From: Dermatophagoides farinae
Lineage: Eukaryota > Arthropoda > Arachnida > Sarcoptiformes > Pyroglyphidae
Length of the DNA: 64,000 bases
NCBI RefSeq assembly: GCF_024713945.1
Contig: NC_134683.1
Location: forward strand, 3,969,501 to 4,033,500
Reading direction: 5' to 3'
Part shown: in pieces, positions 1 through 60,885 of the stretch
How positions within the stretch are numbered: position 1 is the first letter of the stretch
Layout of the letters: every line of letters starts with the position of its first letter
Position numbers and translations under genes: made by a program
Notes under the pieces: model-generated
What the model was told of the DNA's origin: nothing
Database searches by the model: none
The model's input: only the letters and a program-made list of their open reading frames with translations

Positions 1-3000
1 CAATGGGTTTCTCATAATCGATTTCTGGTTTCGATTTTTCATCGAGGGGTTGTTCTTTTGGTTTCTTTATCTTCTTTATCTTTTTCACAATTTTCTTTTC
101 ACCGACTGGTGTTTCCTCGATGGTTTCGATAACTTCGGTAGTTTCGATCATTTCTGTTTCTTCAGGTTGTTCAGTGATTTCTTCTTGAATTGGTTTTTCT
201 TCTTTTGGTTTTTTGGATTTCTTAACTTTTTTCAGCACAGTCTTTTTACCTTCTGGTGTTTCAATCTCTTCGATCGTTTCGACAACTTCTGGTTCATCTT
301 CCTTTTCAACAGATTTTTCATCTTCAGTTGGTTTTGTATCTTCGGTTTTCTTTGTCTTTTTGACTTTTTTGACAACTTTCTTTTTACCTTCTGGTGTATA
401 TATTTCTTGAACAGTTTCAATGATTTCCGTTGTTTCAGTGGCATCAGTTGGCTGTTCGGGTATCAACTCATCACCTGGCTTCGGTTTTTTGTCTTTTTTA
501 ATTTTTCGGATGACTTTTTCTGGTTTATCTTCTGAATCCAGAATCACTTGATCTTCTGGTTCTTCTTTATATTCATTCGGTTCAATGGCTTCTGGTTTTT
601 TGATTTTCTTTATTTTATGAACCTTTTTCTTTTTACCATCAACTTGTTCAATTGCTGGAATAGATTCAACTACTTCGTAAATGTCAATCAATTCCACTAA
701 TTCTTCATCAGATATTGTCTTTGTTGGCTTTTTAATTTTTTTAGTCTTTTTGACAACTTTCTTATCATCTCCTGGTGTGTCTTCTATGATCGTTTCAATT
801 ATTTCAGTGGATTCCACAATATCTGATTCGTTATGTTTTTCAGTCATTTCTTCAATGATTGGCTTTTCATCTTCTGTTGGTTTAATTTCTTCAATTTTAG
901 GCTTCTTGACTTTTTTAATTTTCTTGTCTCCTTCAGGTGTTTCTTCAACAGTTTCAATAATCTCAGTTGTTTCAATCATTTCTGGTTTACCAGGTTCAAT
1001 AATTTTTTCAAGTTTTGTTTTCTCTTCTTCATCTGGCTTTTCATCTTCTTGTTTTTCCTCTTTTGGTTTCTTTGTCTTCTTGATCTTTTTAACAATTTTT
1101 TTGTCACCTTCAGGTGTCGATTCAATTGTTTCTGGTTTTTGTTCCTCATCTTTGGGCAATTCAATGATTTCTTCGAAGAAATCTGTTTTGATTTCTTCAA
1201 TCACTTCTTTATCACCCGTTTCTTGAACTTCGGTGATCGATTCTTTTTGTTTTGGTTTCTTAAATATTTTTCTCTTGGTTTCAGATTGATCTTTTGGACG
1301 AATCCCTTCTTCGAGAGATTCTTCATCGATTGGTTGTTGTTGATCAGGTTTTAAACTAATTTCTTCTGTGATTTTGGGTTTCTTGACTTTTTTGATCTTT
1401 TTGATAATCTTTTTATCTCCTTCGGGTGTTTCCTCAATGGGTTCGATTACTTCCGTTGTTTCAATTATTTCTGATTCAACAGGCTGTTCAATATCTTCGA
1501 TAATCGGTTTCTCTTCCTCTATTGATTTTTCATAATCGATTTCTGGTTTTGATTCTTCATCAAGTGGTTGTTCTTTCGATTTTTTTATTTTCTTGATCTT
1601 TTTGAGAATCTTTTTCTCACCAGGTGTCATTTCGATTGTTTCAATGGTTTCGATCAATTCTGGCTCACTAGGCTGATCAGTAATTTCTTCTTGGGTTGGT
1701 TTTTCTTCTGTAATTTTTATTTCATCAGTTTCTGTTTTAATCTCTTCTGGCTTTTCGGCCTTCGGTTTCTTGACCTTTTTGATCTTTTTGTCAATCTTTG
1801 TATCACCATTAGGTGTTTCCTCAATGGTTTCGATTACTTCGGTTGTTTCAATCATTCCTGATTCAACAATCTGTTCAGTAATCTCTTCGATAATCGGTTT
1901 ATTTTCCTCGATTAATTTTTCATAATCAATTGATATTTTAGATTCATCAAGTGGTTGTTCTATTGGTTTCTTTGTTTTCTTGATCTTTTTGACAATTTTC
2001 TTTTCACCTTTAGGTGTGTACTCAATGATTTCGATAACTTCTGTCGTTTCAATCAATTCCTTTTCTTCAGGTTCAGTTGTTTCTTTCTGGATCGGTTTAT
2101 CTTCTTCAGTTGGTTTCGTATCTTTGATTTCGGGTTTCATGTCTTCTAATTTATCCTCTTTTGGTTTCTTTACTTTTTTGATCTTTTTTATCACTTTTTG
2201 TTCACCTTCAGGTGTCATTTCTATTGTTTCAATAATTTCTTCTGGTTTTTGCTCATCATCTTTGAGCAATTCAATGATTTCTTCGAATATTTCGGTTTTA
2301 ATTTCTTCAATAACTTCTTTATCGCTTATTTCTGGAACTTCAGTGATCGATTCTTTCAATTTTGGTTTCTTTTTTGTTTCTGTATCGATTGTCGATTCAG
2401 CTTCTGGACCAATCTCATCTTCGGGGGATTTTTCATCCATTGGTTGTTGTTGATCAGGTTTTAAACTTACTTTTTCTTCTGTGATTTTCGGTTTCTTGAC
2501 TTTTTTGATCTTTTTAACAATTTTCTTTTCACCTTCCGGTGTTTCCTCAATGGTTTTGATGACTTCGGTTGTTTCAATAATTTCTGATTCATCAGGCATT
2601 TCATTGATTTCTTCTTCGTTCGGCTTTTCATAATCGATCGATGGATTTGATTCTTCATCAAGTGGTTTTTCTTTTGGTTTTTTGTATTTTTTGACTTTTT
2701 TCAAAACAGTCTTTTTACCGTTTGGTGTTTCAATCTCTTCTATTGATTCGGTGATTTCTTGCTTATCTTCTTCTTCAACGAGTTCAATTTTATCGGTGAT
2801 TGGTGTGGTTTCATCAGTTTTCCTTGTCTTTTTTACTTTTTTGACGATTTTCTTTTTACCTTCTGGTGTGTCGATTTCTTGAACAGTTTCAATGGTCTCC
2901 GTTTCAGTGATTTCCTTTTCACTGGGTTGTTCAGGTTCAATCACATCTTCATCTGGTTGGACTTTCTTTGGTTTTTTGTCCTTTTTGACTTTACGAATAA

Positions 3001-6000
3001 CTTTTTCTGGTTTATCTTCTGAATCCAGAATTATCCGGTCTTCTGGTTCTTCTTTGTACTCGATCGGTTGTTGGTCTTCAGGCTTTTTGATTTTCTTGAT
3101 TTTATGAATCTTTTTCTTTTGGCCATCAACTTGTTCAATTGCTGGAATAGATTCAACTACTTCATAAATTTCGATCACTTCAATCACTTGTTCTGTGATT
3201 TGTTTCTTTACTTTTTTCTTCTTTTTAGGCTTTTCTTCATCTTTATCTGGTTTAGTTTCAACTTCTTCATCTGCAAGTTCGATGATTTCCTCGGTGACAG
3301 TGACTGTTGTTTCTTCGGTTATTTCTTTTTCATCAGCTTCATGTAAATCAGCTGTTGGTTCTTTTGTTTTCGTTAATTTTTTCTTGGTTTCAACACCGAC
3401 TTCGGATTCGATGTCAGGTTGTATCTCTTCTTCTGGAGCTTGTTCCTCGAGAATTTCATCTGTCGGTTTCAAGGCAATCAATTCTTCAGCGATGATTTTC
3501 GTCTCTTCATCGGGTTTAGTTTCCAAACCATCTGGTTTGGATTTTCGTCTGATGACTTTCTTCTTTTTCGGTTTTTCTTCATCTGGTTTAGTTTCATCTT
3601 TCGGTTTTTCACCTTCTTCATCTGGTAGTTCGATGATTTCCTCGGTGACAGTGACTGTTGTTTCCTCGGTTATTTCTTTTTCATCGGAATCCTGCAATTC
3701 AGTTGTTGGTTCTTTTGGTTTCGTTAATTTTTTAACCAATTTTTTCTTGGTTTCAACACCTACTTCAGATTCAATGCAGGGCTGAATTTCGTCTTCTGGA
3801 GCTTGTTCTTCGAGAATTTCATCTGTTGGTTTCAAGTCAATCATTTCTTCAGTGATTGCTTTTTCATCGTCCTCAGTAGGTTTTTTGGGTTTTAATTTTC
3901 TCGGCTTTTTCGTCTTTGTTTCTTTTTCTGGTTTCATTTCTTCTTCCTCTTCAACTTTGATTTTGGATTTTTTAACCTTTTTGAGGACAGTCTTTTTGCC
4001 TTCTGGCGTTTCAATCTCCTCTATTGATTCCGTGATTTCTTCTGGTTTATCTTCTTCAACGAATTCAATTTTATCAGTAATTGGAGTGGTTTCATCAGTT
4101 TTCTTTGTCTTTTTGACTTTTTTGACAACTTTCTTTTTACCTTCTGGTGTATATATTTCTTGAACAGTTTCAATGATTTCCGTTGTTTCAGTGGTATCAG
4201 TTGGCTGTTCGGGTATCAACTCATCACCTGGCTTCGGTTTTTTGTCTTTTTTAATTTTTCGGATGACTTTTTCTGGTTTATCTTCTGAATCCAGAATCAC
4301 TTGATCTTCTGGTTCTTCTTTATATTCAATCGGTTCAATGGCTTCTGGTTTTTTGATTTTCTTTATTTTATGAACCTTTTTCTTCTTGCCTTCGATTATT
4401 TCAACTGTTGGAATTGATTCAACTACTTCATAGATTTCGATCACTTCAATCACTTGTTCTGTGATTTGTTTCTTTACTTTTTTCTTCTTTTTCGGTTTAT
4501 CTTCATCGGTTTTCGTTTCATCCTCTGGTTTTTCAACTTCTTCATCTGGTAATTCGATGATTTCCTCAGTCACAATGACTGTAGTTTCTTCGGTTATTTC
4601 TTTTTCATCGGCATCCTGCAATTCAGCTGTTGGTTCTTTTGATTTCGTTAATTTTTTAACCAATTTTTTCTTGGTTTCCACGCCAACTTCGGATTCGATG
4701 TCAGGCTGAATTTCATCTTCTGGAGCTTTTTCTTCCAAAATTTCATCGGTTGGCTTTATAGAAATCACTTCTTCAGTGATGACTTTATCCTCATCTTCTG
4801 GTTTTTCCGTTGATTTTTTAGGTTTCAATTTCTTTGTTTTCTTTGGTTTTTCTTCTACCAATTGTTCATCAATTTCAGGCTTGGTTTCGTCTTCAGGTTT
4901 TATAGGTTCGTCTTTTCCTTCAATTACATTCTCCTCTTCTTTTTCAGGTTTATCTTCCTCTTCGACAACTTCATCATCAGGTTTAGTTTCACCTTTCACA
5001 ATATCTTCTTGTCGTCTTGGTTTTATTTTTTTGACGCCTTTCTTTTTCTCTTTGGTTATTTCTTCTGTAGTGATTTCAATATCAACCGATTCGGTTTTTT
5101 CAATTTCACCAGGTTGTTCTGTCGTTTCTTCGGGTGAAGTTTTTTCAAATGTTTCGGTTACTTTTTTAGTTTCAACTCCAGGTTGTAATTCGCCTGTTAC
5201 ATCTTCAGGTTTCTTATCTTTTTTGATTTTCTTTGATGGTCTTTTTTCATCTTTCAATTTATCCACAACTTTTTCTTCCTCTGCCATTTCTGAAGGTTTT
5301 TCTAGTTTCTCTTCTTCCTTCACATCTGGTTTAGATTTTCGTCTGATGACTTTTTTCTTTTTCGGTTTATCTTCAACGGGTTTAGTTTCATCTTCGGATT
5401 TTTCACCTTCTTCATCAGGTAGTTCGATGATTTCCTCGGTCAAAGTGACTGTAGTTTCCTTGGTAATTTCTTTTTCCTCAGCTTCATGTAAATCAGCTGA
5501 TGGTTCTTTTGGTTTTGTTAATTTTTTAACCAATTTCTTCTTTGTTTCAACTCCAACTTCGGATTCAATGTCAGGTTGAATTTCTTCTTCTGGAGCTTGT
5601 TCTTCGAGAATTTCATCTGTTGGTTTCAAGTCAATCATTTCTTCAGTGATAATTTTCGTCTCTTCATCGGGTTTAGTTTCCAAAGCATCTGGTTTGGATT
5701 TTCGTCTGATGACTTTTTTCTTTGAAGGTTTTTTCGATTTACCTTCTTCGCATTTCTCTTCTGGAATTTCTTCCTCTGGGTTTTGCTCTTCATCAGGAAG
5801 TTTGATAATTTCCTCGGTGACATTGACTGTTGTTTCTTCGGTTATTTCTTTTTCCTCAGCTTCCTGTAAATCAGCTGTTGGTTCTTTTTGTTTTGTTAAT
5901 TTTTTTATCAATTTTTTCTTTGTTTCAACATCAACTTCTGATTCAATGTCTGGTTGAATTTCATCTTCTGGAGCTTTTTCTTCCAAAATTTCATCTGTTG

Positions 6001-9000
6001 GTTTCAAGTCAATCATTTCTTCAGTGATAATTTTCGTCTCTTCATCGGGTTTAGTTTCCAAAGCATCTGGTTTGGATTTTCGTCTGATGACTTTCTTCTT
6101 TTTCGGTTTTTCTTCAACGAGTTTCGTTTCATCTTCTGGTTTTTGTTCTTCATCGGGAAGTTCGATGATTTCCTCAGTCACAATGACTGTCGTTTCTTCT
6201 GTAATTTCTTTTTGTTCAGGTTTTTCATGTAATTCTGCTGTTGGTTCTTTTGGTTTTGTTAATTTTTTAACCAACTTTTTCTTGGTTTCCACGCCAACTT
6301 CGGATTCGATGTCTGGTTCACTTTCTTCTTTTTCCAATTTGGTTTTGGATCTCTTTATCTTTTTGAGGACTGTCTTTTTACCTTCTGATGTTTCAATCTC
6401 TTCTATTGATTCGATTGTTTCGTCTGGTTTTATTTCATCTGTTGGTTTTGTTTCGTCAATTTTCTTTGTTTTCTTTACCTTTTTGACAAGTTTTTTCTTG
6501 CCTTCTGGAGTTTCAATTTCTTGAACAGTTTCCATGATTTCCGTTGTTTCAGTTATATCTGTTGCACTTGGTTGTTCGGATACCACTTCTTCATTTGATT
6601 TTTCTTTTGGTTTTTTATCCTTTTTGATTTTGCGTATTACTTTTTCTGGTTTGTCTTCTGAATCCAAAATTATCTGATCATCTGGTTTTTCTTCATATTC
6701 AATCGGTTGCTGATCTTCTGGTTTTTTAATTTTCTTGATTTTATGAACTTTTTTCTTTTTGCCATCAACCTGTTCAATTGCAGGAATTGATTCAACAACT
6801 TCATAAATGTCAATCAATTCGATGACTTCGTTTGGTTCATAAATGGTTTTTTCTAATTTCGGTTTCTTGACTTTTTTGATTTTTTTGACAACTTTCTTTT
6901 CGCCTTCAGGTGTTTCCTCAATGGTTTCGATTACTTCGGTTGTTTCAATCATTTCTGATTCAACAGGCTGTTCAGTAATCTCTTCGATAATCGGTTTATC
7001 TTCATCGATTGATTTTTCATGATCGATTTCTGGTTTCGATTCTTCATCGAGTGGTTGCTCTTTTGGTTTTTTGACTTTTTTAATCTTTTTGACAATCTTT
7101 TTATCACCATCAGGTGTTTCCTCAATGGTTTCGATAACTTCGGTGGTTTCAATCATTTCTGTTTTTTTTGGTTGTTCAGTGATTTCTTCAGAAATTGTTT
7201 TCTGTTCTTCTGTTGTTTCTTTAGTTTCGATTTGAGGTTCCGATTCTTCTTCAACAGGCTTTTCTTCCTTTGGTCTCTTTACTTTTTTGATTTTTTTGGC
7301 AATCTTTTTATCACCTTCTTGTGTTTCCTCAATGTTTTCGATAATTTCATTCGGTTTTTGCGCATCTTTGGGCAATTCTATGATTTCTTCAAAGATTTTG
7401 GTTTGGATTTCTTCCGTTATTTCTTTATCATCTGTTTCGTTTACTTCAGTAACCGATTCTTTTCGTTTTGGCCTTTTCAATATTTTCTTTTTTGTTTTTG
7501 TATCGATTTTAGACTCATCTTCTGGTTGGATATCATCTTCATGAGATTCTTTTATTTCTGGTTCATCAGTTACTCTCGATTTCTTTGTTTTCTTGATCTT
7601 TTTGATAATTTTCTTTTCACCTTCAGGTGTCATTTCGATTGTCTCGAATACTTCTGTTGTTTCAATCAATTCTTTTTCTTCAGGTTGTTCAGTTGTATCT
7701 TCCTGGATCGGTTTTACTTCTTCTGTTGGTTTTGTATCTTTGATTTCTGGTTTCATGTCTTCTAATTTACCCTCTTTTGGTTTCTTTACTTTTTTGATCT
7801 TTTTCACAATCTTCTTTTCACCTTCAGGTGTCATTTCGATTGTTTCAATAATTTCGTCTGGTTTTTCTTCATCATCTTTAGGCAATTCAATGATTTCTTC
7901 GAAGATTTCGGTTTGGATTTCTTCAATCACTTCTTTATCACTTGTTTCTGGAACTTCGGTGATCGATTCTTTTCTTTTTGGTTTTTTTAATATTTTCATT
8001 TTTGTTTCTGTATTGATTGTCGATTCAGCTTCTGGACCAATCTCATCTTCGGGGGATTTTTCATCCACTGGTTGTTGTTGATCTGGTTTTAAACTAATTT
8101 CTTCTGTGATTTTCTTGGCTTTTTTGATCTTTTTGACAATTTTCTTCCCATCTTCGATTGTCTCTTCAATCGTTTCGATCAATTCTGGCTCACTAGGATG
8201 ATCAGTAATTTCTTCTTGGTTTGGTTTTTCATCTTCGGTTGTTTTTATTTCATCAGTTCCTGGCTTAACCTCTTCTGGCTTTTCTGCCTTAGGTTTCTTG
8301 ACTTTTTTGATCTTTTTGACAATTTTTTTATCACCACCAGGTGTTTCCTCAATGGTTTCGATAACCTCAGTTGTTTCAATCATTTCTGGTTCAACAGGCT
8401 GTTCAGTAATCTCTTCGATAATCGGTTTCTCTTCCTCTATTGGTTTTTCTGGTTTCGATTCTTCATCAAGGGGTTGTTCTTTCGGTTTCTTTGTTTTCTT
8501 AGTCTTTTTGACAATTTTCTTCTCACCATCAGGTGTCATTTCGATTGTCTCAATAACTTCTGTGGTTTCGATCATCTCTTTTTCTTCAGGTTGTTCAATG
8601 ATTTCTTCAGTAATTGGTTTCTCTTCTGCGGCTGGTTTTTCATCTTCGATTAATGGTTTTGTTTCTTCTTCCACTGGTTTTTCATCTTTTGGTTTCTTAA
8701 CTTTTTTGGTCTTTTTGACAATTTTTTTATCACCTTCTGGCGTCTCTTCAATTATTTCAATGACTTCAGTTGTTTCAATCATTTGTTGTTTTTCAAATTC
8801 AATCTTATCATCTTCATCAACAACTGTTGCTTTTTCAACTGATGGTTTTTCTCCAGAATGTTCATCTACTGTGATTGTTATTTGTTCAATTTTCTCTATA
8901 GATTTATCTTCAGAAACCGTTTCGTCTTTTTCAGGTTGTTGTTGTTTCTTTGTTTTTCGTTTCACAATTTTCTTTTTCCCTTCTGGCATTTGAATTTCTT

Positions 9001-9690
9001 CAATTGTTTCTGCGATATCAATTTCCACAGAAATCTCTGATGGCTTTGATGGTTTAATTACATGTTCGGTTACCAATGAAGTCTGTGAAAATTCCGGTTC
9101 ATCGGAAGGTTTCTCTTCAATTTTACTTTCAGGCTGCAAATCTGGTTTTTCATCATCTAATTTGGCCGATTTACGCCGAATAATTTTACGTTTTTGTTTT
9201 ATCGATTCTAATGTTTCGTCTTTTTTCTGTGTATTTTCTTCTGATTCTTTAGATTCAAAAATTTCCAATGATTTCGTTTTTTCAGCTAATGGCTGCTGTT
9301 CAACTTCTGGTTCATCGACTTTTTTCTCAATCTGATCAGCACCAGTTTTCACTTGTGGTTCTTCCTCCTTCTCCTTATGGTCATCCAAAATCGGTTTTTC
9401 AATCATCTCCACTGCCACTTCTTTCTCTGGTTGTAGTTGTGATTTTTCTAAAATTTTTGATTTTTTATCATCATCATCAATTAATTCAGAATAATTGGCT
9501 AAATTATAGCCATTAGCAACATCAATAGCAACAATAGCATTCTTATCATCATCAACACGGGCAGCAGTAGCAGCATTGATAGCCATAGCATCATCGTTGT
9601 CGTTGTTGTCCATTGCCATTACAACATCGGCTGTTTCATCAACATTCATTGGCGTAGTCATCATCATCATTTCATTTGCATTTTTTGTAC
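1..9690 (-). CDS. sls: Exon E17 (partial, runs off the window): PEVK-like repeats
   Basis: About 3,230 codons, open to the window edge and in the same frame as E16. It begins with an acidic, Met-rich, non-repetitive island (EMMMMTTPMNVDE, about 9480-9690). A transition of mixed charged sequence follows to about 8800, then arrays of the MIETTEVIETIEETPEGD-type repeat and Lys-rich partner. Between 2670 and 6840 the pattern changes to KKKVIRRKSKPD and KELVKKLTKPKEPTA-like modules with ITEETTVTVTEEIIELPDEE. The module EIYEVVESIPAIEQVDG with DQVILDSEDKPEKVIRKI recurs. Base 1 is the first base of an unfinished codon. Everything seen fits the elastic spring; no folded domain is recognisable. Confidence 0.9.
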
Positions 9691-9747
9691 CTATTATCTC
9701 GGCCATTTCTATGTTCTTTTTATTAATAAAAAATTTTTTATACATAC
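9691..9747 (-). other. Tentative 57-bp in-frame intron in the PEVK-like region
   Basis: CAAG|GTATGT matches the donors of E13 and E15 almost exactly. An acceptor GATAATAG|GTAC 57 bp later keeps the frame, and 57 bp equals the size of other introns here (56 and 57 bp). Left unspliced, the segment would read GMYKKFFINKKNI and so on, an aromatic, hydrophobic patch foreign to the acidic flanks. A closer acceptor (ACATAG, 39 bp) is also in frame. The sequence contains no stop, so it could instead be coding. Confidence 0.55.
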
Positions 9748-12700
9748 CTTGTTTATCATCAACAACAATTTTTACGATTGTTTCGTCTTTCCCATCCAAA
9801 ATTGTTTCTGGTTTTTCCTCTGCGATTTTTGTGGCAACGGCCGTTTCAAATACATTTTCTTTGTCATCTGGTTTCTCATCCAATAATAATGGTTGATCTT
9901 CGATGACTTCCACGGGTTTTGATTTTCGTTTTGGTTTTTTCGGTTTCTCTGGTTCCTCGGGTTTTTCTCCAACTGGTTCGTCGACTGGCTGGATTTCCTC
10001 TTCAATTGGCAATTTTTCTTCAGAAGGCAATTCTTCTTTTTCATCAGGATGTTTTAGTTTCTTTGTTTTTCGTTTCACAAATTTATTTTCACCTTCTGGT
10101 GTTATTTCACTTTCTTCAATTGTTTCGACAATGCTACTTTCTTCTAGAATCTCTGATGGTTCATCAACTACATGTTTTGTTATTTCGGGTGATGATTGAA
10201 ATTCAGGTTCTTCAGGTTTCGTTTCAACATCGGGTTTTTCTTCTTTGGTTTTTTTGACTTTTTTAATCTTTTTAACACTTTTCTTGCCTTCTGGTGTTTC
10301 GATTTCTTCTATCGTTTCAATCAATTCTGTCGTTTCAGTCATTTCAGTTTGAGTCGGCTGTTCGGGTAATTCCTCTTCTGGTTTCTTTTTGTCTTTTTTG
10401 ACTTTACGAATAACTTTTTCCGGTTTATCATTTTCATCCAGAATTATCTGGTCTTCTGGTTCTTCTTTGTATTCAATCAGTTCTTTTTCTTCTGGTTTTT
10501 TTACTTTCATAATTTTATAAATTTTTTTCTTTTTACCTTGAATGATCTCAATAGTGGAAATTGATTCGATGACTTCATAGATCTCAATCGATTCGATGAA
10601 TTCGATCGATTTTTTAATAGTTTCATCATCTTTAGGTTTCTTTATCTTCTTTATCTTTTTGACAACTTTCTTATCGCCTTCAGATGTCTCCTCGATGGTT
10701 TCAATCAATTCAGATGTTTCGATCACTTCGGTTGTTTCAGGTTGTTCAATAATTTCTTCTTGGATCGGTTTATCTTCTTCGATCGGCTTTTCATAATCGA
10801 TCGATGGTTTCGATTCTTCATCCAATGGTTTTTCTTCTTTTGGTTTTTTGGATTTTTTGACTTTTTTCAAAACAGTCTTTTTACCTTCAGGTGTTTCAAT
10901 CTCTTCTATCGATTCCATAACATCATCTGATTTATCAATTGACTTTTCATCTTCTGTTTGCTTCATCTCTTCAGTTTTCCTTGTCTTTTTCACTTTTTTG
11001 ACAACTTTCTTTTTGCCTTCTGGTGTGTCGATTTCTTGAACAGTTTCAATGATTTCTGTTGTTTCAGTTATATCTGTTGCAGTTGGTTGTTCGGGTATCA
11101 CTTTTTCATCTGATTTTTCTTCTTTCGGTTTTTTATCCTTTTTGATTTTGCGTATTACTTTTTCTGGTTTGTCTTCTGAATCCAAAATTACCTGATCATC
11201 TGGTTTTTCTTCATATTCAATCGGTTGCTGATCTTCAGGCTTTTTGATTTTCTTTATTTTGTGGACCTTTCGCTTTTTCCCATCAACATGTTCAACTGTT
11301 GGAATTGATTCGACAACTTCATAAATGTCAATTAATTCGACGACTTCAGTTGGTTCATCAATGGGTTTTTCTTCCTTTGGCCTCTTTACTTTTTTGATCT
11401 TTTTGACAACTTTTTTGTCACCTTCGAGTGTTTCCTCAATCGTCTCAATAACTTCTATGGTTTCAATCATCTCTTTTCCTTCAGGTTGTTCAGTGATTTC
11501 TTCTGGTTTAGGTTTCTTTTCATCGATTGGTTTTTTATAATCGATTAATGGTTTTGTTTCTTCTTCCAGAGGTTTTTCATCTTTCGGTTTCTTTATTTTC
11601 TTGATCTTTTTGACAATCTTTTTATCACCATCAGGTGTTTCCTCAATGGTTTCGATAACTTCGGTTGTTTCAATCAATTCTGATTCAACAGGTTTTTTGG
11701 TCTTTTTGACAATTTTCTTTTCACCTTCAGGTGTTATTTCCATTGTTTCGATAATTACTTCGGGTTTTTCTTCATCATCTTTGGGCAATTCGATGATTTC
11801 CTCAAAGATTTCGGTTTGGATTTCTTCAATTACTTCTTTATCGCATGTTTCTGGAATTTCGGTGATCGATTCTTTTCGTTTTGATTTTTTTAATATTTTC
11901 TTCTTTGTTTCTGTATCGATTTTTGATTCATCTTCTGGACGAATCTCTTCTCCAGAAACTTCTTCCGTGATTGGTTCATCAGATGGTTTCAAGCTGATTG
12001 TTTCTTCTGTCACTTTTGGTTTCTTGACTTTTTTGATCTTTTTGACGACTTTTATGTCCCCTTCGGGTGTTTCCTCAATCGTCTCAATAACTTCGATCGT
12101 TTCAATCATTTCTGTTTCTTTTGGTTGTTCAGCGATTTCTTCTGGTTTTGGTTTCTTTTCCTCGATTGGTTTTTTATAATCTATCAGTGGTTTTGTTTCT
12201 TCTTCCACGGGCTTTTCATCTTTTGGTTTCTTGACTTTTTTGATCTTTTTGAGCACAGTCTTTTTGCCTTCTGGTGTTTCAATTTCCTCGATTGTTTCAA
12301 TTATTTGTTCGGGTTTTTCTTCTTCAACAGGCTTTATTTCATCACCTGTTGGCATCGTTTCTTCAGTTTTCTTTATTTTCTTTACTTTTTTGACAACTTT
12401 TTTCTTGCCTTCGGGTGTTTCAATATCTTTGACTGTTTCAATGATTTCCATGATTTCGGTAGTTTCAGTTGGCTGTTCGTGCATCACTTCTTCATATGGT
12501 TTCGGTTTTTTATCTTTTTTAACTTTACGAATTACTTTTTCTGGTTTATCATCATGATCAAGTATCACTTCATCATCTGGTTCTTCTTTGTATTCAATGG
12601 GTTTTTGATCCTCTTGTTTTTTCACCTTTTTGATTTTATGCACTTTTTTCTTTTTGCCATCAATAGTCTCAATTGTAGCAATTGAATCAATAACTTCATA

Positions 12701-18700: not shown

Positions 18701-21700
18701 AATTTCTTCTTGGGTTGGTTTTTCATCTTCGGTTGTTTTTATTTCATCAGTTCCTGACTTAACCTCTTCTGGCTTTTCTGCCTTAGGTTTCTTGACTTTT
18801 TTGATCTTTTTGACAATCTTTTTATCACCATCAGGTGTTTCCTCAATGGTTTCGATAACCTCAGTTGTTTCAATCATTTCGGATTCAATAGGCTGTTCAG
18901 TAATCTCTTCGATAATCGGTTTCTCTTCCTCTATTGGTTTTTCTGGTTTCGATTCTTCATCAAGTGGTTGTTCTTTTGGTTTCTTTGTCTTCTTGATCTT
19001 TTTGACAATTTTCTTTTCGCCTTCAGGTGTCATTTCAATTGTCTCGATTACTTCGGTTGTTTCAATCAATTCCCTTTCTTCAGGTTGTTCAGTCGTTTTT
19101 TCCTGAATCGGTTTCTCTTCTTCAGTTGGTTTCGTATCTTTGATTTCTGGTTTAATTTCTTCTGGTTTTTCCTCTTTTGGTTTCTTTGTCTTCTTGATCT
19201 TTTTGACAACTTTTTTATCACCTTCAGGTGTCATTTCGATTGTTTCAATAATTTCTTCTGGTTTTTGCTCATCGTCTTTGGGCAATTCAATGATTTCTTC
19301 AAAGACTTCTGTTTTGATTTCTTCAATCACTTCTTTATCGCTTATTTCTGGAATTTCGATAATCGATTCTTTTCGTTTTGGTTTTTTCAATATTTTCTTT
19401 TTTGTTTCTGTATCGATTGTCAATTCAGATTCAGCTTCTGGACGAATCTCTTCTTCAGGAACTTTTATGATTGGTTCATCAGATGGTTTCAAGCTGATTG
19501 TTTCTTCAGTTGTTACTTTTGGTTTTTTCACTTTTTTTATCTTTTTGACAACTTTTTTGTCGCCTTCGGGTGTTTCCTCAATTGTCTCAATAACTTCGAT
19601 CGTTTCAATCATTTCTGTTTCTTCAGGTTGTTCAGCGATTTCTTCAGACATCGGTTTTTCTTTTTCTATATTTAATTCGTAATCACTCTCTAGTTGTTTG
19701 TTTTCTTCAGGTTTTTTGATCTTTTTAATTCTTTTCACAACCTTCTTTTTACCCTCTGGTGTAATCACTTCTTCTTTTTGTTCTTGAACAATAAATTCAT
19801 CTTGTTTAGATTGTTCAGATTCTATGGATTCTGATTTCGTTTTTCGAAGAATTAATTTTTTCGGTTTATTTATTGTTAAATCTTCGCCTTCAGTTTTATC
19901 TTCATTATCATAATCATCTGGTAGATCGATTATTTCTTCAAAAATTTCTGTCATAACATCTTCATCAATTTCTTTTGCAGAAAATTCTTCATAAATTTCT
20001 TGTGGTTGTTCTTTTCTTTTTGATTTCGTTTGAATTTTCTTTCTACTTTCTGTGATGAATTCCTGTTCAGGTTTTATAACCGATTCGGTTAATTCTTCAT
20101 CCGATTCTTCAAACGGCACGATTGGTTTTCCTTCTGGTTTCATATGAACCGTTTCTTCGGCCATTAATTTTGGCTCATCAAACTGGTCAAGATTTACCGG
20201 TTGTTGATCTTTTCGTTTTTTAACTTTTTTCACGATTTTCTTCTTATCATCGTAAGACGTTTCAGTTATCACTTCTTCAACGACATCAGATACTTCGATG
20301 AATTCAATTTTTTCACTTGGTTGTTGATCAGTTATTTCTTCTTCAGGTTTTTTGTCCGATTCTGGTTTGATTTTTTCTTCTATTTCATCAGCTGGTTTTT
20401 TTGCCATCTTCACTATAAGTTTCTTTTTATCTTTTATAATTTTAATTTCTTCAGGTTTTGTGATTTCTTTGATCACCGTTTGTGGTTTACCAGTTTCATC
20501 GGACAAGATGTGTTCATCCGGTTTTTTCTCATATTCTTCAGGTAACTTTTCTTCTGGTTTCTTTATTTTCTTCACTTTTTTAATGAATTTCTTATTCCCT
20601 TCTGGAGATTCGGTCATTTCTTCAACAACCTCCACTACATCTGCCACTTCAACGAATTCAGATGGCTTTTCAGGCATTTCTTCAGATTTTTCATCGGGTT
20701 TTTTCATTTTTCGAATGATTTTCTTTGGTTTTTTCGTTTCATCCACGACTACCAAGTCGCCAGGTTGCTCTTTGTATTCTTCTGGTTTCTTAGCTTTTGG
20801 TTTTTTCACCAATTTGATTTTATGTAAGGTTTTTTGGCCACCTTCAGGTGTTGCTTCAATCTCCTCGATTGTTTCAACAACCTCGGATACTTCGATGAAT
20901 TCTTTCATCTCAATTTCGGTTTTTTCTTCTGTAGTTTCCTCTGGTTTCTTTTCTGGTCTGTCTTCCTGGGTTGGTTTGAAACTAATTTCAGGCTTAGTTT
21001 CTTCAATAACTTCATCCGGTTTTTTCGGCTTCTTCAAGACAATCTTTTTCTTGTCTTTTGTTAAATCAATCGTCTCTTCAGAAACTACATCACCCGGTTT
21101 TGTGATTTCTTTGATCACCTTTTGTGGTTTACCAGTGTCATCAGATAAAATATGTTCATCTGGCTTCTTTTCATATTCTTCTGGTAACTTTTTTTCTGGT
21201 TTCTTTATTTTCTTCACTTTTTTGATGATTTTCTTTTTGCCTTCTGGTGTCTCGGTAATTTCTTCGACAACCTCGACCACATCAGCCATTTCAACGAATT
21301 CAGTTGGCTTTTCAGACGTTTCTTCAGGCTCAGGTTCTTCTGGTTTTCTAATTTTTCGAATTATCTTCTTAGGCTTTTTCGTTTCGTCTACCACAACATG
21401 ATCGCCTGGTTGTTCTTTGTATTCCTCTGGTTTTTTGGCTTTTGGTTTTTTCACCAATTTGATTTTGTGTACAGATTTCTTGTCGCCATCAGGTGTTTCC
21501 TCAATTTCTTCGATTGTTTCCACAACCTCGGAAACCTCAACAAATTCTTTCATCTCGATTTCAGTTTTTTCTTCGGTCGATTCTTGTCGTTTCTTGTCTT
21601 GTTTTTCTTCTATAGTTGGTTTGAAACTTATTTCGGGTGTCGTTTCTTCAGCCACATCATCGGGCTTTTTCTTCAAGACAATTTTCTTTTTATCTTTGAT

Positions 21701-24700
21701 TTCAATTTCTTCTTTTGATCCTACAATATCTTCTGGCTTTTCTTCTTTAGGTTTTTCATCAGTTATTGAGACAACAACATCAATTTCTTCAAGAATTTCC
21801 TTCAATTCAATTTGATGTTCAGTTAATTCAGGTTTTTCTTCGACTTTTGATTGAATTTCACTAACTTCTTCGTCTGGTTTCTTTTCTTTTTTGATTTTAC
21901 GAACAATTTTCTTTCGTGGTTTGCCAAGTTTTTCCCGTAGAACATCTTCAAATTCATCCATTTCTTCTGTCAGTGATTTCAATTGTTCAACATCATCTTT
22001 AAGTTTTTCCATTTTGTCATGTTCCGTTGGTATTTGTAATTGTTTCAGCATTTCCTGAATTTCCGATTTAATCGTTTCTTCTTTTTGTTTTTCATCGGTA
22101 ATTTCTTTTTCAAATGTTTTTGTTATTTCTTCAATTAATGTTTCAATACGTTCATGTAATTCATGTTCGGGTTTTTTATCTTCTGGTTTTTTGATCTTTC
22201 GGATTATTTTCTTTGGTTTACCAGTTTCATCTACAACCAAGTGTTCATCTGGTTTCTTTTCATAATCTTCTGGCTTTTTATCTTCAGGTTTTTTCACTTT
22301 TTTGATTTTTCTTACAATTTTCTTCTTGCCTTCAGGTGTTTCAATAATTTCTTCGGTTGTCTCCACAACATCGGAAACTTCGATGAATTCGGTCATTGGA
22401 ATTGTTTCTTCTGTTATTTGCTCTGGTCTTTTGGATTTGCGTATGATTTTCTTTGGTTTTTTGGTTTCGTCCACCACAATATGATCACCAGGTTGTTCTT
22501 TGTATTCTTCTGGTTTCTTTTCTTTTGGTTTTTTAACCAATTTGATTTTGTGTATGGTTTTCTTGTCACCATCAGGAGTTTCTTCAATCTCCTCGATTGT
22601 TTCAACAACCTCGGATACTTCGATGAATTCTTTCATCTCAATTTCGGTTTTTTCTTCTCTAGTTTCTTCTGGTTTCTTTTCTGGCATTTTTTCTTCAATT
22701 GGTTTGAAACTGATTTCTGGTGTCGTTTCTTCAGCCACATCATCGGGTTTCTTTTGTTTCTTTAAGACAATCTTTTTCTTATCTTTGGTTAAATCAATCG
22801 TCTCTTCAGAAATTACATCACCAGGTTTTGTGATTTCTTTGATCACCTTTTGTGGTTTACCAGTGTCATCAGATAAGATATGTTCATCGGGTTTCTTTTC
22901 ATATTCTTCTGGTAACTTTTCTTCTGGTTTCTTTATTTTCTTCACCTTTTTGATGATTTTCTTTCTGCCTTCTAGCGTTTCGGTAATTTCTTCAACAACC
23001 TCCACTACATCTGCCACTTCAACGAATTCAGATGGCTTTTCAGGCATTTCTTCAGATTTTTCATCGGGTTTTTTCACTTTTCGAATGATTTTCTTTGGTT
23101 TTTTCGTTTCATCCACGACTACCAAGTCGCCAGGTTGCTCTTTGTATTCTTCTGGTTTCTTAGCTTTTGGTTTTTTCACCAATTTGATTTTATGTAAGGT
23201 TTTGTCGCCATCAGGTGTTTCTTCAATCTCCTCGATCGTTTCAACAACTTCGGATACTTCGATGAATTCTTTCATCTCAATTTCGGTTTTTTCTTCTGTA
23301 GTTTCCTCTGGTTTCTTTTTTGGTATTTTTTCTTCAATTGGTTTGAAACTGATTTCTGGTGTCGTTTCTTTAGCCACATCATCGGGTTTCTTTTGTTTCT
23401 TCAAGACAATCTTTTTCTTATCTTTGGTTAAATCAATCGTCTCTTCAGAAATTACATCACCCGGTTTTGTGATTTCTTTGATCACTTTTTGTGGTTTTCC
23501 GGTATCATCGGACAATATGTGTTCGTCTGGTCTTTTCTCGTATTCTTCTGGCAACTTTTCTTCTGGTTTTTTTATTTTCTTCACCTTTTTGATGATTTTC
23601 TTATTGCCTTCTGGAGTTTCGGTGATTTCTTCAACTACCTCGACCACATCAGCCATTTCAACGAATTCAGTTGGCTTTTCAGACGTTTCTTCAGGCTCAG
23701 GTTCTTCTGGTTTTCTAATTTTTCGAATGATTTTCTTTGGTTTTTTCGTTTCGTCTACCACAACATGATCGCCTGGTTGTTCTTTGTATTCTTCTGGTTT
23801 CTTAGCTTTTGGTTTCTTTACCTTCTTTATTTTATGAACAATTTTCTTATCGCCTTCAGGTGATTCTTCAATCTCTTCAATTGTTTCCACAACCTCTGAA
23901 ACTTCAACAAATTCTTTCATCTCAATTTCAGTTTGTTCTTCAGTCGTTTTCTCTGGCTTTTCTTCTATAGTTGTTGGTTGAAAACTAATTTCTGGTTTAG
24001 TTTCTTCAATAACATCATCTGTTGTCTTTTTCTGTTTTTTCCGAACAATTTTTTTCTTGTCTTTGACTTCAATTTCATCGATTGTTTGGATAACTTCTGA
24101 AGTTTCTATCAATTCACTTATTTCATGTTTACTTTCTTCAGTTATTTCTTCATCTGACATTTTTTGTTTTTTCAAGACAATTTTCTTTTTGTCTTTTGTC
24201 AGATCAATTTTCTCTTCAACCAGTACATCTTCAGTTTTTTCCGGTGTTTTAATCTTTCGGATAATTTTCTTTGGTTTACCCGTTTTATCTACAACCACAT
24301 GTTCATCGGGTTTTTTCTCATATTCTTCTGGTAACTTTTCTTCTGGTTTCTTTATTTTTTTCGCCTTTTTGATCATTTTCTTTCTGCCTTCTGGTGTTTC
24401 GGTAATTTCTTCTACCACTTCAACCACATCGGCCAATTCGACAAATTCGCATGGCTTTGATTCAGTCACTTTTTCTTGTTTGACGATTTTACGTATGATT
24501 TTCTTTGGTTTTTTTGTCTCATCGACGATGATATGATCATCAGGATGTTCTTTATAGTCTACGGGTTTCTTTTCTTCTGGTTTTTTCACCAATTTGATTT
24601 TATGAACAGTTTTTTTGCCACCTTCAGGTGTTTTTTCAATCTCTTCGATAGTTTCAACAACCTCGGAAACTTCAACGAATTCACTAGGTTCCATCTCAGT

Positions 24701-27700
24701 GAATTCTTCAGTCGTTTTCCCCGAGTTTCTTTTCGGGCATTTTTTCTTCGGTTGGTTTGAAACTAATTTCGGGCTTCGTTTTTTCAGCCACATCATCGGA
24801 TTTCTTTTGTTTCTTCAAGACAAGTTTCTTTTTATCTTCGACTAATTTAATTTCTTCTTTTGTTTCAGTTTGGTCTTCTGGTTTCTTATCATCCGGTTTT
24901 TTAATCTTTCGGATAATTTTCTTTGGTTTACCCGTTTCATCCATCACAACATGCTCATCGGGTTTCTTTTCATAATCTTCAGGCATTTCATTTTCTGGTT
25001 TTTTGACTTTTTTGATTTTTCTTACGATTTTCTTGCCTTCCGATGTTTCAGTGATTTCTTCAATTGTCTCCACAACATCGGAAACTTCAACGAATTCCAA
25101 TTTTTCTATTGGCTGCTGTTCTTTTGATGTCGTTTCATGTGGTTTTTTCACTTTTCGTATAATTTTCTTTGGTTTTTGACTAATTTCATCCACCACAATA
25201 TGTTCATCAGGTTTTTCCTCATATTCTTCTGGTTTCGTAACTTTTGGTTTTTTAATCAATTTAATTCGATGAATAGTTTTCTTTTGATCATCATCGATGA
25301 TTTCACTATCTTCAATTGTTTCGATAACTTCAGAAACTTCAACGAATTCCATTGTTTCTATTTCGCTTGATGATTGTTCGATAGTTTCTTCCATTGGTTT
25401 TTGCATTACAGGTTCATCATCATAGTGTTTAATTTTTGTTATTATTTCTGGCTCTTCAAATTCTTCTTTTTCAGATTTCTTTGGTTTTTTAAGAATGATT
25501 TTCTTTTTATCTTTGATCATTTCAATATTTTCTTCACTGATTACATCTTTTTCGGGTAATTTTGGAATTTTTCTGATGATTTTTCTTGGTTTACCTTGAT
25601 CATCGGATAATAAATGTTCATCTGGTTTTGTTTGATAATCTTTGGGCTTTTCATCTTCGGGTTTCTTTACTTTTTTCACTTTTTTAATGATTTTTCTTTT
25701 ACCTTCAGGTGATTCGATTATTTCATCAATAACTTCGACGATATCTGCTATTTCAACAAATTCAGTAATTGTTGTTGATTCATCTACTTCTTCTTTCAAT
25801 GGTTTTTTATCGTCTGGTTTTTTCACTTTTCGAATGATTTTCTTTGGTTTTTTCATTTCATCAACGACTACCAAGTCGCCTGGTTGTTCTTTGTATTCTT
25901 CTGGTCTCTTTTCTTTTGGTTTTTTAACCAATTTGATTTTGTGTACGGTTTTCTTGTCGCCTTGAGGTGTTTCTTCAATTTCTTCAATTGTTTCTACCAC
26001 TTGAGAAACTTCGACGAATTCTGTAAGTTCGTAAATATCGGCAAATTCTTCTTTTGTTTGCTCTGGTTTCTTTTCTTGCTCAACTTCATGAGTTGGTTTG
26101 AAACTGATTTCGGGTGTCGTTTCTTCAGTCACATCATCGGGTTTCTTTTGTTTCTTCAAGACAAGTTTCTTTTTATCTTTGACCAATTCAATTTTCTCCT
26201 CGAAAACAACATCACCAGGTTTTCGGAGTTCTTTAATCACCTTTTGTGGTTTACCAGTTTCATCTACAACTACATGTTCATCTGGCTTCTTTTCATATTC
26301 TTCTGGTAACTTTTCTTCTGGTTTCTTTATTTTCTTCACCTTGTTGATGATTTTCTTTTTGCCTTCTGGTGTCTCGGTAATTTCTTCGACAACCTCGACC
26401 ACTTCAGCCATTTCAACGAATTCAGTTGGCTTTTCAGGCTTTTCCTCGGATTCAGGTTCTTCTGATTTTCTAATTTTTCGAATGATTTTCTTTGGTTTTT
26501 TCGTTTCGTCTACCACAACATGATCGCCTGGTTGTTCTTTATATTCCTCCGGTTTCTTAGCTTTTGGTTTTTTCACCAATTTGATTTTGTGTACGGTTTT
26601 TTTGTCACCTTCAGATGTTTCTTCAATCTCCTCGATAGTTTCAACTACTTGAGAAACTTCGACGAATTCTTTCATCTCGATTTCCATCTTTTCTTCGGTC
26701 GTTTCTTCAGGTTTTTCTTCTATAGTTGGTTTGAAACTAATTTCGGGCTTTGTTTCTTCAACAACTTCATCTGGTTTTTTCGTTTTCTTTAAGACAATCT
26801 TTTTCTTGTCTTTTGTTAAATCAACTATCTCTTCAGAAACTGCATCACCCAGTTTTGTGATTTCTTTAATCACCTTTTGTGGTTTACCAGTTTCATCGGA
26901 CAAGATGTGTTCGTCCGGTTTTTTCTCATATTCTTCTGGTAATTTCTCTTCAGGTTTCTTTATTTTCTTCACTTTTTTCATAATTTTCTTTTTACCTTCT
27001 GGTGTTTCAGTCATTTCTTCAACAACCTCGACTACATCAGCCAATTCAATAAATTCAGATGGCTTTTCAGGCATTTCTTCAGATTTTTCATCGGGTTTTT
27101 TCATTTTTCGAATGATTTTCTTTGGTTTTTTCGTTTCATCCACGACTACCAAGTCGCCAGGTTGCTCTTTGTATTCTTCTGGTTTCTTTTCTTTTGGTTT
27201 TTTAACCAATTTGATTTTGTGTATGGTTTTCTTGTCACCATCAGGAGTTTCTTCAATCTCCTCGATTGTTTCAACAACCTCGGATACTTCGATGAATTCT
27301 TTCATCTCAATTTCGGTTTTTTCTTCTCTAGTTTCTTCTGGTTTCTTTTCTGGCATTTTTTCTTCAATTGGTTTGAAACTGATTTCTGGTGTCGTTTCTT
27401 CAGCCACATCATCGGGTTTCTTTTGTTTCTTTAAGACAATCTTTTTCTTATCTTTGGTTAAATCAATCGTCTCTTCAGAAATTACATCACCAGGTTTTGT
27501 GATTTCTTTGATCACCTTTTGTGGTTTACCAGTGTCATCAGATAAGATATGTTCATCTGGCTTCTTTTCATATTCTTCTGGTAACTTTTCTTCTGGTTTC
27601 TTTATTTTCTTCACCTTTTTGATGATTTTCTTTTTGCCTTCTGGTGTCTCGGTAATTTCTTCGACAACCTCGACCACTTCAGCCATTTCAACGAATTCAG

Positions 27701-30700
27701 TTGGCTTTTCAGACGTTTCTTCAGGCTCAGGTTCTTCTGGTTTTCTAATTTTTCGAATTATCTTCTTAGGCTTTTTCGTTTCGTCTACCACAACATGATC
27801 GCCTGGTTGTTCTTTGTATTCCTCTGGTTTTTTGGCTTTTGGTTTTTTCACCAATTTGATTTTGTGTACAGATTTCTTGTCGCCATCAGGTGTTTCCTCA
27901 ATTTCTTCGATTGTTTCCACAACCTCGGAAACTTCAACAAATTCTTTCATCTCGATTTCGGTTTTTTCTTCTGTCGTTTCCTTTGGTCTCTTTTCTGGTT
28001 TATCATCTGTTGTTGGTTTGATGCTAATTTCGGGTTTCGTTTCTTCAACAACTTCATCTGGTTTTTTCGTTTTCTTTAAGATAATCTTTTTCTTGTCTTT
28101 CGTTAAATCAATCGTCTCAGAAACTACATTACCCGGTTTTGTGATTTCTTTGATCACCTTTTGTGGTTTACCTGTTTCATCGGACAAGATGTGTTCGTCC
28201 GGTTTTTTCTCATATTCTTCTGGTAACTTTTCTTCTGATTTCTTTATTTTCTTCACCTTTTTGATGATTTTCTTTCTGCCTTCTGGCGTTTCGGTGATTT
28301 CTTCAACCACCTCGACTACATCAGCCAATTCGATAAATTCCGTTGGCTTTTCAGGCTTTTCCTCGGATTCATGTTCTTCTGGTTTTCTAATTTTTCGTAT
28401 GATTTTTTTTGGTTTTTTCGTTTCGTCTACCACAACATGATCGCCTGGTTGTTTTTTATATTCTTCTGGTTTCTTTTCTTTTGGTTTTTTAACCAATTTG
28501 ATTTTGTGTATGGTTTTCTTGTCACCATCAGGAGTTTCTTCAATCTCCTCGATTGTTTCAACAACCTCGGATACTTCGATGAATTCTTTCATCTCAATTT
28601 CGGTTTTTTCTTCTGTAGTTTCCTCTGGTTTCTTTTCTGGTATTTTCTCTTCAATTGGTTTGAAACTGATTTCTGGTGTCGTTTCTTCAGCCACATCATC
28701 GGGTTTCTTTTGTTTCTTCAAGACAATCTTTTTCTTATCTTTGAGATCAATCTCTCGTTTTGATTCAGTTTTGACTTCTGGTTTTTTGATCTTTCGGATT
28801 ATTTTCTTTGGTTTACCCGTTTCATCTACAACCACGTGTTCATCGGGCTTCTTTTCATAATCTTCGAGCTTTTTATCTTCAGGTTTTTTCACTTTTTTGA
28901 TTTTTCTTACAATTTTCTTTTTGCCTTCTGGTGTTTCAATAATTTCTTCGGTTGTCTCCACAACATCGGAAACTTCGATGAATTCCGTCATTGGAATTGT
29001 TTCTTCTGTTATTTGCTCTGGTCTTTTGGATTTGCGTATGATTTTCTTTGGTTTTTTGGTTTCGTCCACCACAATATGATCACCAGGTTGTTCTTTGTAT
29101 TCTTCTGGTTTCTTGGCTTTTGGTTTTCTCACTAATTTAATCTTATGAGTTGTTTGCTTATCACCTTCAGGTGTTTCCTCTATTTCTTCGATTGTTTCAA
29201 CAACTTCTGATATTTCAACAAACTCTTCAGTGATTGTTTCAATTTCAGGATGAATTTTTTCTTGTATTATTTGTGTTGGTTCATGTTCAATTTTTTCAAC
29301 AATTTCTCTTGGTTTTTCTTCATCTTTTTCATCAGATTTCTTTGGCTTTTTCAAGACAATCTTTTTCTTGTCTTGATCTGATATTTCTTTGGGTTTTTGG
29401 ATTTTTCGTATGATTTTCTTTGGTTTACCAGAAATATCGGATAACATGTGTTCTTCTGGTTTCTGGAGATATTCTTCAGATTTTCCATCTTCTGGTTTCT
29501 TTACTTTTTTCACTTTATGTTTTATGATTTTTTTACCACCAGGTGTTACGGATATTTCATCCATAGTTTCCACGATATCTGTGATTTCTATGAATTCAAG
29601 AATTTGTCTATCCTCATCGGGTAGTATTTCGATTGTTTCGTCACTAGTAGGTTTTTTCACACGTTTGATAATCTTCTTTGGTTTCTTTGTTGTTTCTTCA
29701 ATCAAAATATGTTCACCCGGTTTCTCTTGATATTCTACCGGTTGTTTTTCTTTGGGTTTTTTAATCAATTTAATTTTGTGCACTTTTTTCTTGTCGTCTA
29801 CTTCTTCTTCGATTATGTGGACGACATCAGCTATTTCCATATATTCAGCCATTTCTGTTGGCTTTTCTTCTTCTTTGGTTTCTTTTGGTTTTTTCAATAA
29901 AATTTTCTTTTTATCTTTTTCATCCGGATGTTTGGCATGAATTCGGATAATTTTCTTCGGTTTTCCACTTATATCCGAAAGCATATGATCATCAGGTTGT
30001 TTATCGTATTCTTCGGGTTTTTTCTCATCATGTTTACGGATTCGAATAACTTTTTTCGAAACACGTTCACTTCCATCTGGTGTCGATTCAATTTGAGCAA
30101 TTGTTTCGATGATATCAGATATTTCGATAAATTCTAATCTTTTTTCATCATCTTTTTGCTCATCATCGATGGATTTTCGTAAGCGACGTATAATTTTTAT
30201 CGGTTTTTTCGTCTCACTTTCAATGACAACATGATCACCAGGTTTTTCTTCATATGGAATTGGCTTTTTATCATCTGGTTTTCGTACTAATTTAATTTTA
30301 TGAACCGATTTTTTATCACCTTCAGTTGTTGTTTCTTCAATCTCTTCGATTGTTTCGACAACTTTGTATATTTCAATAAATTCCGGTAATTCTTCTGGAT
30401 ATTCTTCTTCTGTTGATTCTTTTGGTTTTTTACATTCTTCTTCTGTATCGGGGATTTGTTTTGTTATCGTTGCTAATATTGTGGTGGTAGGTTTGGTTTC
30501 AACGATTTCTTTCGGTTTTCTTGCCATTCTAATGATTTTCTTTAGTTTACCCATTTTATCAGCAAGTAAATGATCACCGGATTTAGGTTCATAATCAATT
30601 GGTTTTTGATCTTTAGGTTTTTTAACTTTTCGGATTTTATGTCGTATAATGTTTTGGCCATCCGGTGTTTCGGTCATTTCTTCCACCGTTTCAATGATAT

Positions 30701-31177
30701 CGGAAATTTCAATAAATTCGAATGATTCCGGCGATGGTTTTATTGTTTCTACAGTTGTCACGGGTTTTGGTTGTTTTCTCCGAATTATTTTTTTCGGTTT
30801 CATTGTTTGATCATCAATCACAAAATGATCATCCGGTTCTTCACGATATTCAATCGGTTTTTGATCTTCTGGCCGTCTGATTAGTTTAATTTTATGTTGA
30901 ATTTTTGGTTTTTCTTTTTCGTCATAACTTTCGATCACTTCAATTGTTTCAACGACATCTGATATTTCAATAAATTCCTCGATATCTAAATCGTATGGTC
31001 GTTGTTCAATCGTTGTTTCTGGTTCTTGGTCAATCTGCTGCTTATCTGTTGCCTTTATGACACGTTCCAATTTGATTGGTTGATCTTGTTTCGGTTCGAT
31101 TTTCTTTGGTTTTCGTACGATTTTCCTGATGATTTTATCATCCGGTTGTTGTTGTTGTTGTTCTTCATAGACGACAT
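9748..31177 (-). CDS. sls: Exon E16: 21.4 kb PEVK-like exon of super-repeats and 67-residue repeats
   Basis: About 7,140 codons read in one frame except for a one-base break at 24715-24722. From 31177 to about 20300 the protein is made of 211-215-residue super-repeats: EFVEVSEVVETIEEIEET, KIKLVKKPKEKKPEEYKE, then GDHVVVDETKKPKKIIRKI, a second half with EELPEEYEKKPDEHILSD, and LKKQKKPDDVAEETTPEI. At 21936-22170 a non-repetitive, helical-looking island interrupts them. From about 20300 down to 9748 the units are about 67 residues long (MIETTEVIETIEETPEGD, then KKIVKKIKKVKKPK and an acidic tail), interspersed with two other modules. Composition is Glu/Lys/Pro/Val/Ile-rich with almost no aromatic residues apart from Tyr and Phe at fixed repeat positions. 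The role inferred from the family is molecular spring. Its left end is the donor of a tentative 57-bp intron; without it the exon runs on to base 1. Confidence 0.9.
13620..14440 (-). repeat. Tandem 201-bp (67-residue) repeats
   Basis: The phrase ATTGTCTCGATTACTTCGG or a close variant on the plus strand occurs at about 13770, 13971, 14172 and 14373, an exact 201-bp step. The encoded unit is ELIETTEVIETIEMTPEG, KKIVKKxKKTKKxK and EEKPEEMKPEIKDTKPTEEE. Confidence 0.85.
20330..31150 (-). repeat. Array of 211-215-residue PEVK super-repeats
   Basis: The plus-strand tag GGTTTGAAACT (or close variants) marks one fixed point per unit. It recurs at about 20973, 21618, 22701, 23340, 23976, 24753, 26095, 26728, 27370, 28015 and 28657. 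Most steps are 633-645 bp, that is 211-215 codons. The longer steps hold inserted sequence (the helical island; extra half units). From about 28800 to 31150 units are more diverged. Confidence 0.85.
24708..24722 (-). other. Single-base frame break inside E16
   Basis: The right-hand frame ends EKKLGEND and stop at 24708. The other super-repeat copies read a short TTT run here (GTCGTTTCC), whereas this copy has GTCGTTTTCC followed by CC. Removing one base restores EKKLGETTEEFTEMEP and joins the two long open frames perfectly. The extra base sits in the T run at 24715-24718 or the C run at 24719-24722. A homopolymer error in the assembly is most likely; a true truncating variant would remove more than 8,000 residues. 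Confidence 0.9.
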
Positions 31178-31491: not shown

Positions 31492-31558
31492 CTTGATCAA
31501 TTTGTTCTGTTTCCAGTTCTGGCTCCTTGGATTCTTCAGCACGTGGTTCATGATCATC
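31492..31558 (-). CDS. sls: Exon E15: short acidic linker exon
   Basis: A 67-bp exon between acceptor ATAATTTCAG|GATGATC and donor GATCAAG|GTATGT. It encodes DDHEPRAEESKEPELETEQ and a little more, leaving one base that E16 completes to Asp. Glu/Pro-rich composition fits the surrounding spring. In the other two frames it either stops at once or does not fit E16. Its small size makes it a candidate for alternative splicing, though skipping it would shift the frame. Confidence 0.6.
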
Positions 31559-60866: not shown

Positions 60867-60885
60867 CTGAAAAGTCGCGAGAGAG

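Follow-up and report, generated by a model that had tools for sequence, protein, structure and literature searches.

How far can a protein spring be lengthened within one coding exon? The question is raised by a 64,000-nucleotide stretch of the genome of the mite Dermatophagoides farinae (contig NC_134683.1, here C7, positions 3,969,501 to 4,033,500), called the window below. From the sequence alone, a preliminary description had proposed a titin-like gene in this stretch, with a giant spring exon of 21 to 31 kb that reads in one frame to the window edge apart from one single-base break and one optional 57-bp intron. In this study, we followed the frame beyond the window and examined its coding potential, repeats, breaks and possible introns. 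We regard it as highly probable that the gene is a mite I-band titin with much of its extensible spring in an open block of 45.9 kb, which would have grown by in-frame duplication and would form one exon, or two (21.4 and 24.2 kb) if a site at position 9,747 is spliced.

Two open frames overlap on the minus strand of this part of the window, one from 31,244 to 24,711 (2,178 codons) and one from 24,814 to the window edge (positions are those of the window, with negative numbers beyond its edge). Upon addition of flanking sequence (60 kb past the open-frame edge and 20 kb past the opposite one), the second frame was found to continue in the neighbouring contig sequence to -14,714, for a total of 13,176 codons. 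A frame-and-splice model of the locus yielded a single exon from 31,177 to -14,675 (C7:3,954,825-4,000,677), comprising 45,853 bases or about 15,280 codons, in which no intron was placed, even though this first gene model over-called introns. The 31 kb in one frame that had been described were thus confirmed, and the downstream end, which was to be sought in the neighbouring sequence, could be modelled. The giant exon itself stood, with its length underestimated, as the open block is about half as long again. Its ends are less certain than its middle, the acceptor at 31,178 being weak (score -0.5) and the donor at -14,676 modest (1.2). Both ends have the same phase, so that the giant exon could be skipped, giving a short isoform.

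Several lines of evidence indicate that the block is coding. Its sense strand consists of 49% A and 17% T, and from the dinucleotide composition of this strand 0.064 stops per codon are expected, which would put about 844 stops into the 13,176 codons of the open frame. A codon score, trained on frames of this very gene including that of the giant exon, was positive in one frame at every 600-base step from 31,200 to -13,800, save the step containing the break. In the self-alignments that have at least 300 bases and at least 80% identity (129 of 547), 8.5% of first, 6.1% of second and 24.8% of third codon positions are mismatched; these alignments overlap and are not independent. Such an excess at third positions is the pattern that selection on the protein sequence would leave. 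Furthermore, 467 of the 526 self-alignments clear of the break have in-frame offsets.

The predicted product of the exon comprises about 15,280 residues (1.78 MDa, isoelectric point [pI] 4.95) and is dominated by glutamate (21.7%), lysine (20.1%) and isoleucine (11.1%), followed by threonine (8.1%), proline (7.9%), aspartate (6.5%) and valine (6.4%). Proline, glutamate, valine and lysine together make up 56% and exceed 40% in 98% of 250-residue windows, 40% per such window being the PEVK rule given in PMC12063666. The C-terminal 400 residues or so are acidic and PEVK-poor. A profile seeded with one repeat of about 62 residues found 148 copies that score at least 20 bits and together account for 54% of the product; no copy reached this limit in six shuffled proteins or the reversed sequence, where five weaker matches were seen. 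With looser limits, 193 copies were obtained in five spring sequences, of which 166 lie in the two parts of the giant exon. A search of the genome (62,435,336 bases in 22 contigs) gave 135 matches to the repeat consensus (150 of 169 candidates scored), all on this strand of C7 between 3,946,938 and 4,007,638, inside this gene. Pfam scans of the 13.4-kb spring exon and of the giant-exon segment 10,003-24,811 matched no family.

The repeat copies are mostly in-register duplicates, with exact internal repeats of up to 392 bases, which supports one of the two causes proposed in the preliminary description, growth of the spring by internal duplication, the other being intron loss on a large scale. 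In addition, 239 identical bases occur in the giant exon and in the next spring exon (at -6,012 and -20,524); identity across an intron would be a sign of recent exchange or duplication. In-frame duplication together with exchange therefore appears to be the simplest account of how the block grew.

Since the block is repetitive, we considered whether its length could be an artefact of assembly, with repeats expanded or mis-joined. The published assembly is described in PMC11074847 as a polished merge of the output of three assemblers from PacBio reads with an N50 of 9,679 bases, and eight single-base frame breaks had to be modelled across the springs, both of which would fit an artefact. The longest exact internal repeat, however, is far shorter than these reads, as is the span of near-identical copies: just 2 of the 547 self-alignments are as long as 500 bases at 90% identity. 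Divergence between copies falls mainly on third codon positions, and a homologue of 26,516 residues is predicted in the sister species D. pteronyssinus. We thus consider an artefactual length very unlikely.

Further observations weigh against the reading as one intact coding exon, namely, self-alignments out of frame, the frame breaks and the segment next to position 9,747. The first are the remaining 59 of the 526 self-alignments clear of the break, which start out of frame; gaps may explain them. Second, the frame breaks once, near 24,714 between the two overlapping frames, as had been noticed before, and this would be compatible with a disabled allele. Self-alignments spanning the break agree on a shift, 19 of 21 being offset by one base and 2 not. 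Its presence in a polished assembly would suit a biological cause, i.e., an allele that is disabled or polymorphic, or else programmed frameshifting, as would the same sign of all seven breaks modelled in the downstream spring. The site is a short homopolymer, however, and coding scores are alike on either side. Moreover, the assembly has a quality value of 36.1, or about one error per 4,080 bases, according to PMC11074847; about 11 base errors are therefore expected in the 45.9-kb exon, and one frame break is unremarkable. A biological break thus seems unlikely, and the break is most simply taken as an assembly error. The seven further apparent single-base breaks are found downstream, within about 9 kb of spring sequence (-30,000 to -38,600), where local assembly quality is the likely cause and very short introns are the alternative.

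The third point concerns introns. We scanned the giant exon for in-frame GT-AG pairs of 45 to 1,200 bases, scored by splice signals plus the loss in coding score. Because just 8 of 14 called introns would have passed both cut-offs of a first, stricter scan, it was repeated with looser splice limits. Among the 12 best pairs listed, the top five all use the donor at 9,747. The optional 57-bp intron of the preliminary description (9,747-9,691) is among them with a score of 9.0; the donor stood as a candidate, while the end at 9,499, giving 249 bases, scores better (11.5). The next four pairs begin at 9,691 or 9,775, in or beside that segment, and score 2.2 to -1.8; all others are at or below -1.9. 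The best of 20 codon-shuffled controls (3.4) was exceeded only by pairs with donor 9,747. By a closely similar measure, with the best frame taken and stops capped, 13 introns called in the gene scored 6.4 to 117. This check of power is partly circular, since a similar score had served to find the reference introns and the weakest of the 14 was omitted. In the scan of GT-AG pairs, no second in-frame intron candidate is visible in the giant exon.

If the intron at 9,747 is retained, the open block is one exon; if it is always spliced, the block is two exons of 21.4 and 24.2 kb, and there is no 46-kb exon. Constitutive splicing of 9,747-9,499, or of a shorter intron, would gain from the donor score of 5.8, which equals the best of the 14 introns called in the gene, and from the negative coding score of the 249 bases; the score dips below zero within 9,889-9,496. 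It would also gain from a 16-base word spanning the donor, whose only other copy in the 62.4 Mb is that at the intron at 31,491, just before the giant exon. The two donors are followed, at distances of about 40 and 50 bases, by a 12-base word of which the genome has 10 copies. On the other hand, all 83 codons of the candidate are open, the probability of which is about 0.0045 at the stop rate of the gene's introns (139 of 2,204 codons in 13 introns, three frames pooled), even if 3 of the 13 introns, each of at most 132 bases, also have one open frame. Past the donor, the resemblance of the two sites fades: a local alignment scored 93 (300 shuffles: mean, 58.5; standard deviation, 9.1; maximum, 99), whereas significance was lost in a stricter alignment from which the donor was excluded, where 82 of the 1,000 randomised controls did at least as well. 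In this AT-rich sequence, 47 of 1,500 pairs drawn at random have a word of at least 12 bases in common, as do 5 of the 136 pairs of real introns, and a word of 12 bases also links the candidate with another intron, at 48,704. With 12-base sharing common by chance and the stricter alignment null, the link between the sites comes down to the genome-wide word counts.

Kinship of the site at 9,747 with the intron at 31,491 is likely, though not proven. Most simply, a duplicated block would have brought an intron end into the array, where it would now be coding, or spliced in some transcripts only. A single 45.9-kb coding exon that arose by in-frame duplication, and into which one duplicated block brought a second version of a splice donor of this gene, now coding or part of an optional intron, is accordingly a reading we hold plausible, at a little less than an even chance. 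Two constitutive exons, a sub-case of the same duplicated spring, are a tentative reading that falls well short of even. If real, an optional intron at 9,747 could tune the spring.

The domain order on either side of the springs speaks for the type of gene. N-terminal to them, the open frame 49,422-58,892 encodes 23 I-set stretches, for which titin chains are the best matches among solved structures. Downstream, a Pfam scan of the open frame from -38,461 to -44,086 revealed SH3_1, one plus eight I-set and five fn3 stretches, again with titin chains as the best relatives among solved structures, and no kinase at an E value of 0.01 in that frame. The C-terminal order of Sallimus and I-connectin is SH3, Ig and Fn3, without a kinase. 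The array of Ig domains followed by springs, SH3, Ig and Fn3 is thus the layout of arthropod Sallimus/I-connectin, and the gene looks like a mite I-band titin (Sallimus/D-titin/I-connectin), an assignment that rests on domain order and agrees with the titin-like gene first proposed. Projectin and twitchin, A-band titins, have many Fn3-Ig repeats plus a kinase; with just five Fn3 and no kinase in the scanned tail, this identity was rejected. No relatives of the sequence were found in a collection of viral contigs, and a collection of genome contigs gave three distant Ig-type matches, in bacterial records.

As a rough total, the gene comprises about 103 kb of coding sequence, or 34,000 residues, with its 5' end not fixed and a 3' end that may exceed -44,061. 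In the preliminary description, three exons, two of them labelled E4 and E13, held more than 90% of the coding sequence. This holds within the window (about 91%) and drops to about 67% of the whole modelled gene, if we guess that E4 is the Ig exon (9.4 kb) and E13 the first spring exon (13.4 kb), or vice versa. The features of the locus are listed in Table 1. The first gene model had learned chiefly from codons of the springs, and many of the introns that it placed in the Ig region were doubtful. An Ig-trained model was therefore used for that region; its exons upstream of 61,441 were left out, as they may belong to another gene.

Table 1. Features of the titin-like locus, in window positions
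Feature	Positions	Strand	Basis	Remarks
Giant spring exon, part within the window	1..31177	-	Open frames, frame-and-splice model	
In-frame intron candidate, the sole outstanding one	9499..9747	-	Splice/coding scan	249 bases, stop-free; alternative end 9,691 gives 57 bases
Zone of the single-base frame break	24711..24814	-	Overlapping frames, self-alignments	Short homopolymer; shift near 24,714
Intron directly 5' of the giant exon	31178..31491	-	Gene model	314 bases; strong donor, weak acceptor
Exon preceding the giant exon	31492..31558	-	Gene model	67 bases
First spring exon	32010..45398	-	Open frame and model	About 13.4 kb; 3' end uncertain (32,010 or 32,020)
Tandem Ig exon	49427..58801	-	Pfam, model	About 9.4 kb; upstream boundary is a weak 58-base intron call
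Upstream Ig exons	58860..61441	-	Ig-trained model	5' end of gene not fixed

Two details of the upstream Ig region were recorded. At 58,783-58,892, two Ig-coding frames overlap. The 58-base intron by which the model joins them has poor splice signals, so that the frame may instead be broken by a single base here as well. At 60,879-60,957, a modelled intron between upstream Ig exons contains a (GA)n tract with about 39 copies of the dinucleotide.

Other Ig-rich loci are present in the genome. On C1, numerous short Ig frames, spaced by a few hundred to about 1,000 bases, form clusters at 3,962,903-3,973,522, 8,127,731-8,136,888 and 8,208,479-8,215,062, two of which are on opposite strands about 72 kb apart; in layout they are similar to the exons arrayed in tandem in Dscam-like genes of chelicerates. 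A further Ig-rich locus, C9:2,687,839-2,719,310, has open frames of up to 3,247 codons (nearly 10 kb), and another lies at C7:4,306,632-4,318,489. The last two probably represent further giant genes of muscle, for instance projectin or obscurin, and the one on C9 may be projectin itself. The genome also encodes the mite allergen family Blo-t-5 (best E value, 2.6e-53), with two of three matches on C4; in D. farinae, Der f 5 and Der f 21 are assigned to chromosome 4 (PMC11074847).

Based on these data, we propose that repeated in-frame duplication and exchange of a unit of about 62 residues, rich in Glu, Lys, Ile, Pro and Val, would have built the block. The product of about 15,280 residues would connect the Ig array to the C-terminal SH3-Ig-Fn3 part as a disordered entropic spring, whose contour length would be about 5.3 micrometres at 0.35 nm per residue. 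We infer its expression in muscle, its mechanics and optional splicing; skipping of the giant exon is predicted to give a short isoform, by analogy with spring exons in fly flight muscle. If the single exon is real, it would be among the longest coding exons of any animal and a clear case of a mechanical element lengthened within one exon. Giant repetitive exons are easily fragmented or missed by annotation, and they raise questions on exon definition and messenger RNA quality control.

Crayfish I-connectin, reportedly described by Fukuzawa et al. in 2001 as an arthropod I-band connectin spanning giant sarcomeres, is said to carry PEVK repeats of about 68 residues in a spring that is probably shorter than that of the mite. 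In human titin (connectin), likewise a giant muscle spring protein, the PEVK spring is spread over many small exons, whereas the springs of the mite protein lie in few giant ones. The human protein, as given in PMC12198301 and PMC9845391, has 38,138 residues over all of its 363 exons, the largest of 17,106 bp. The mite protein has roughly 34,000 residues, and in the part of its tail that was examined no kinase was found. The mite exon is longer than the largest human titin exon, as the preliminary description had stated, and, if unspliced, more than twice as long as the human exons cited there (the MUC16 figure as given there), in a 62-Mb genome of a very small animal.

Among mites, PMC6493757 lists the D. 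pteronyssinus homologue as DERPT_G11449, a titin homologue of 3,086 kDa with a pI of 4.93, against 4.95 for the D. farinae giant-exon product; the two are presumably orthologous. The mass range given there for proteins with at least two peptides extends to 3,086.2 kDa, the same as this homologue. As far as this source goes, the giant protein is therefore known in outline already. The exon structure of the 46-kb open block, its repeats and its intron-like site found no account in the published literature as partially covered by our searches. In the draft genome of the scabies mite, the largest gene is a titin/twitchin homologue of 9,021 residues, according to PMC4641413.

The closest functional comparison is Drosophila Sallimus (sls, D-titin). 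Its PEVK exon 32 encodes about 1,700 residues, compared with the roughly 15,280 of the mite block, nine times more. As stated in PMC12063666, loss of exon 32 makes Sallimus about 0.5 micrometre and the larval sarcomere about 1.5 shorter, and flies without exons 31 and 32 are viable and fly. The mite spring offers a test of whether the length of I-band titin sets sarcomere size outside insects.
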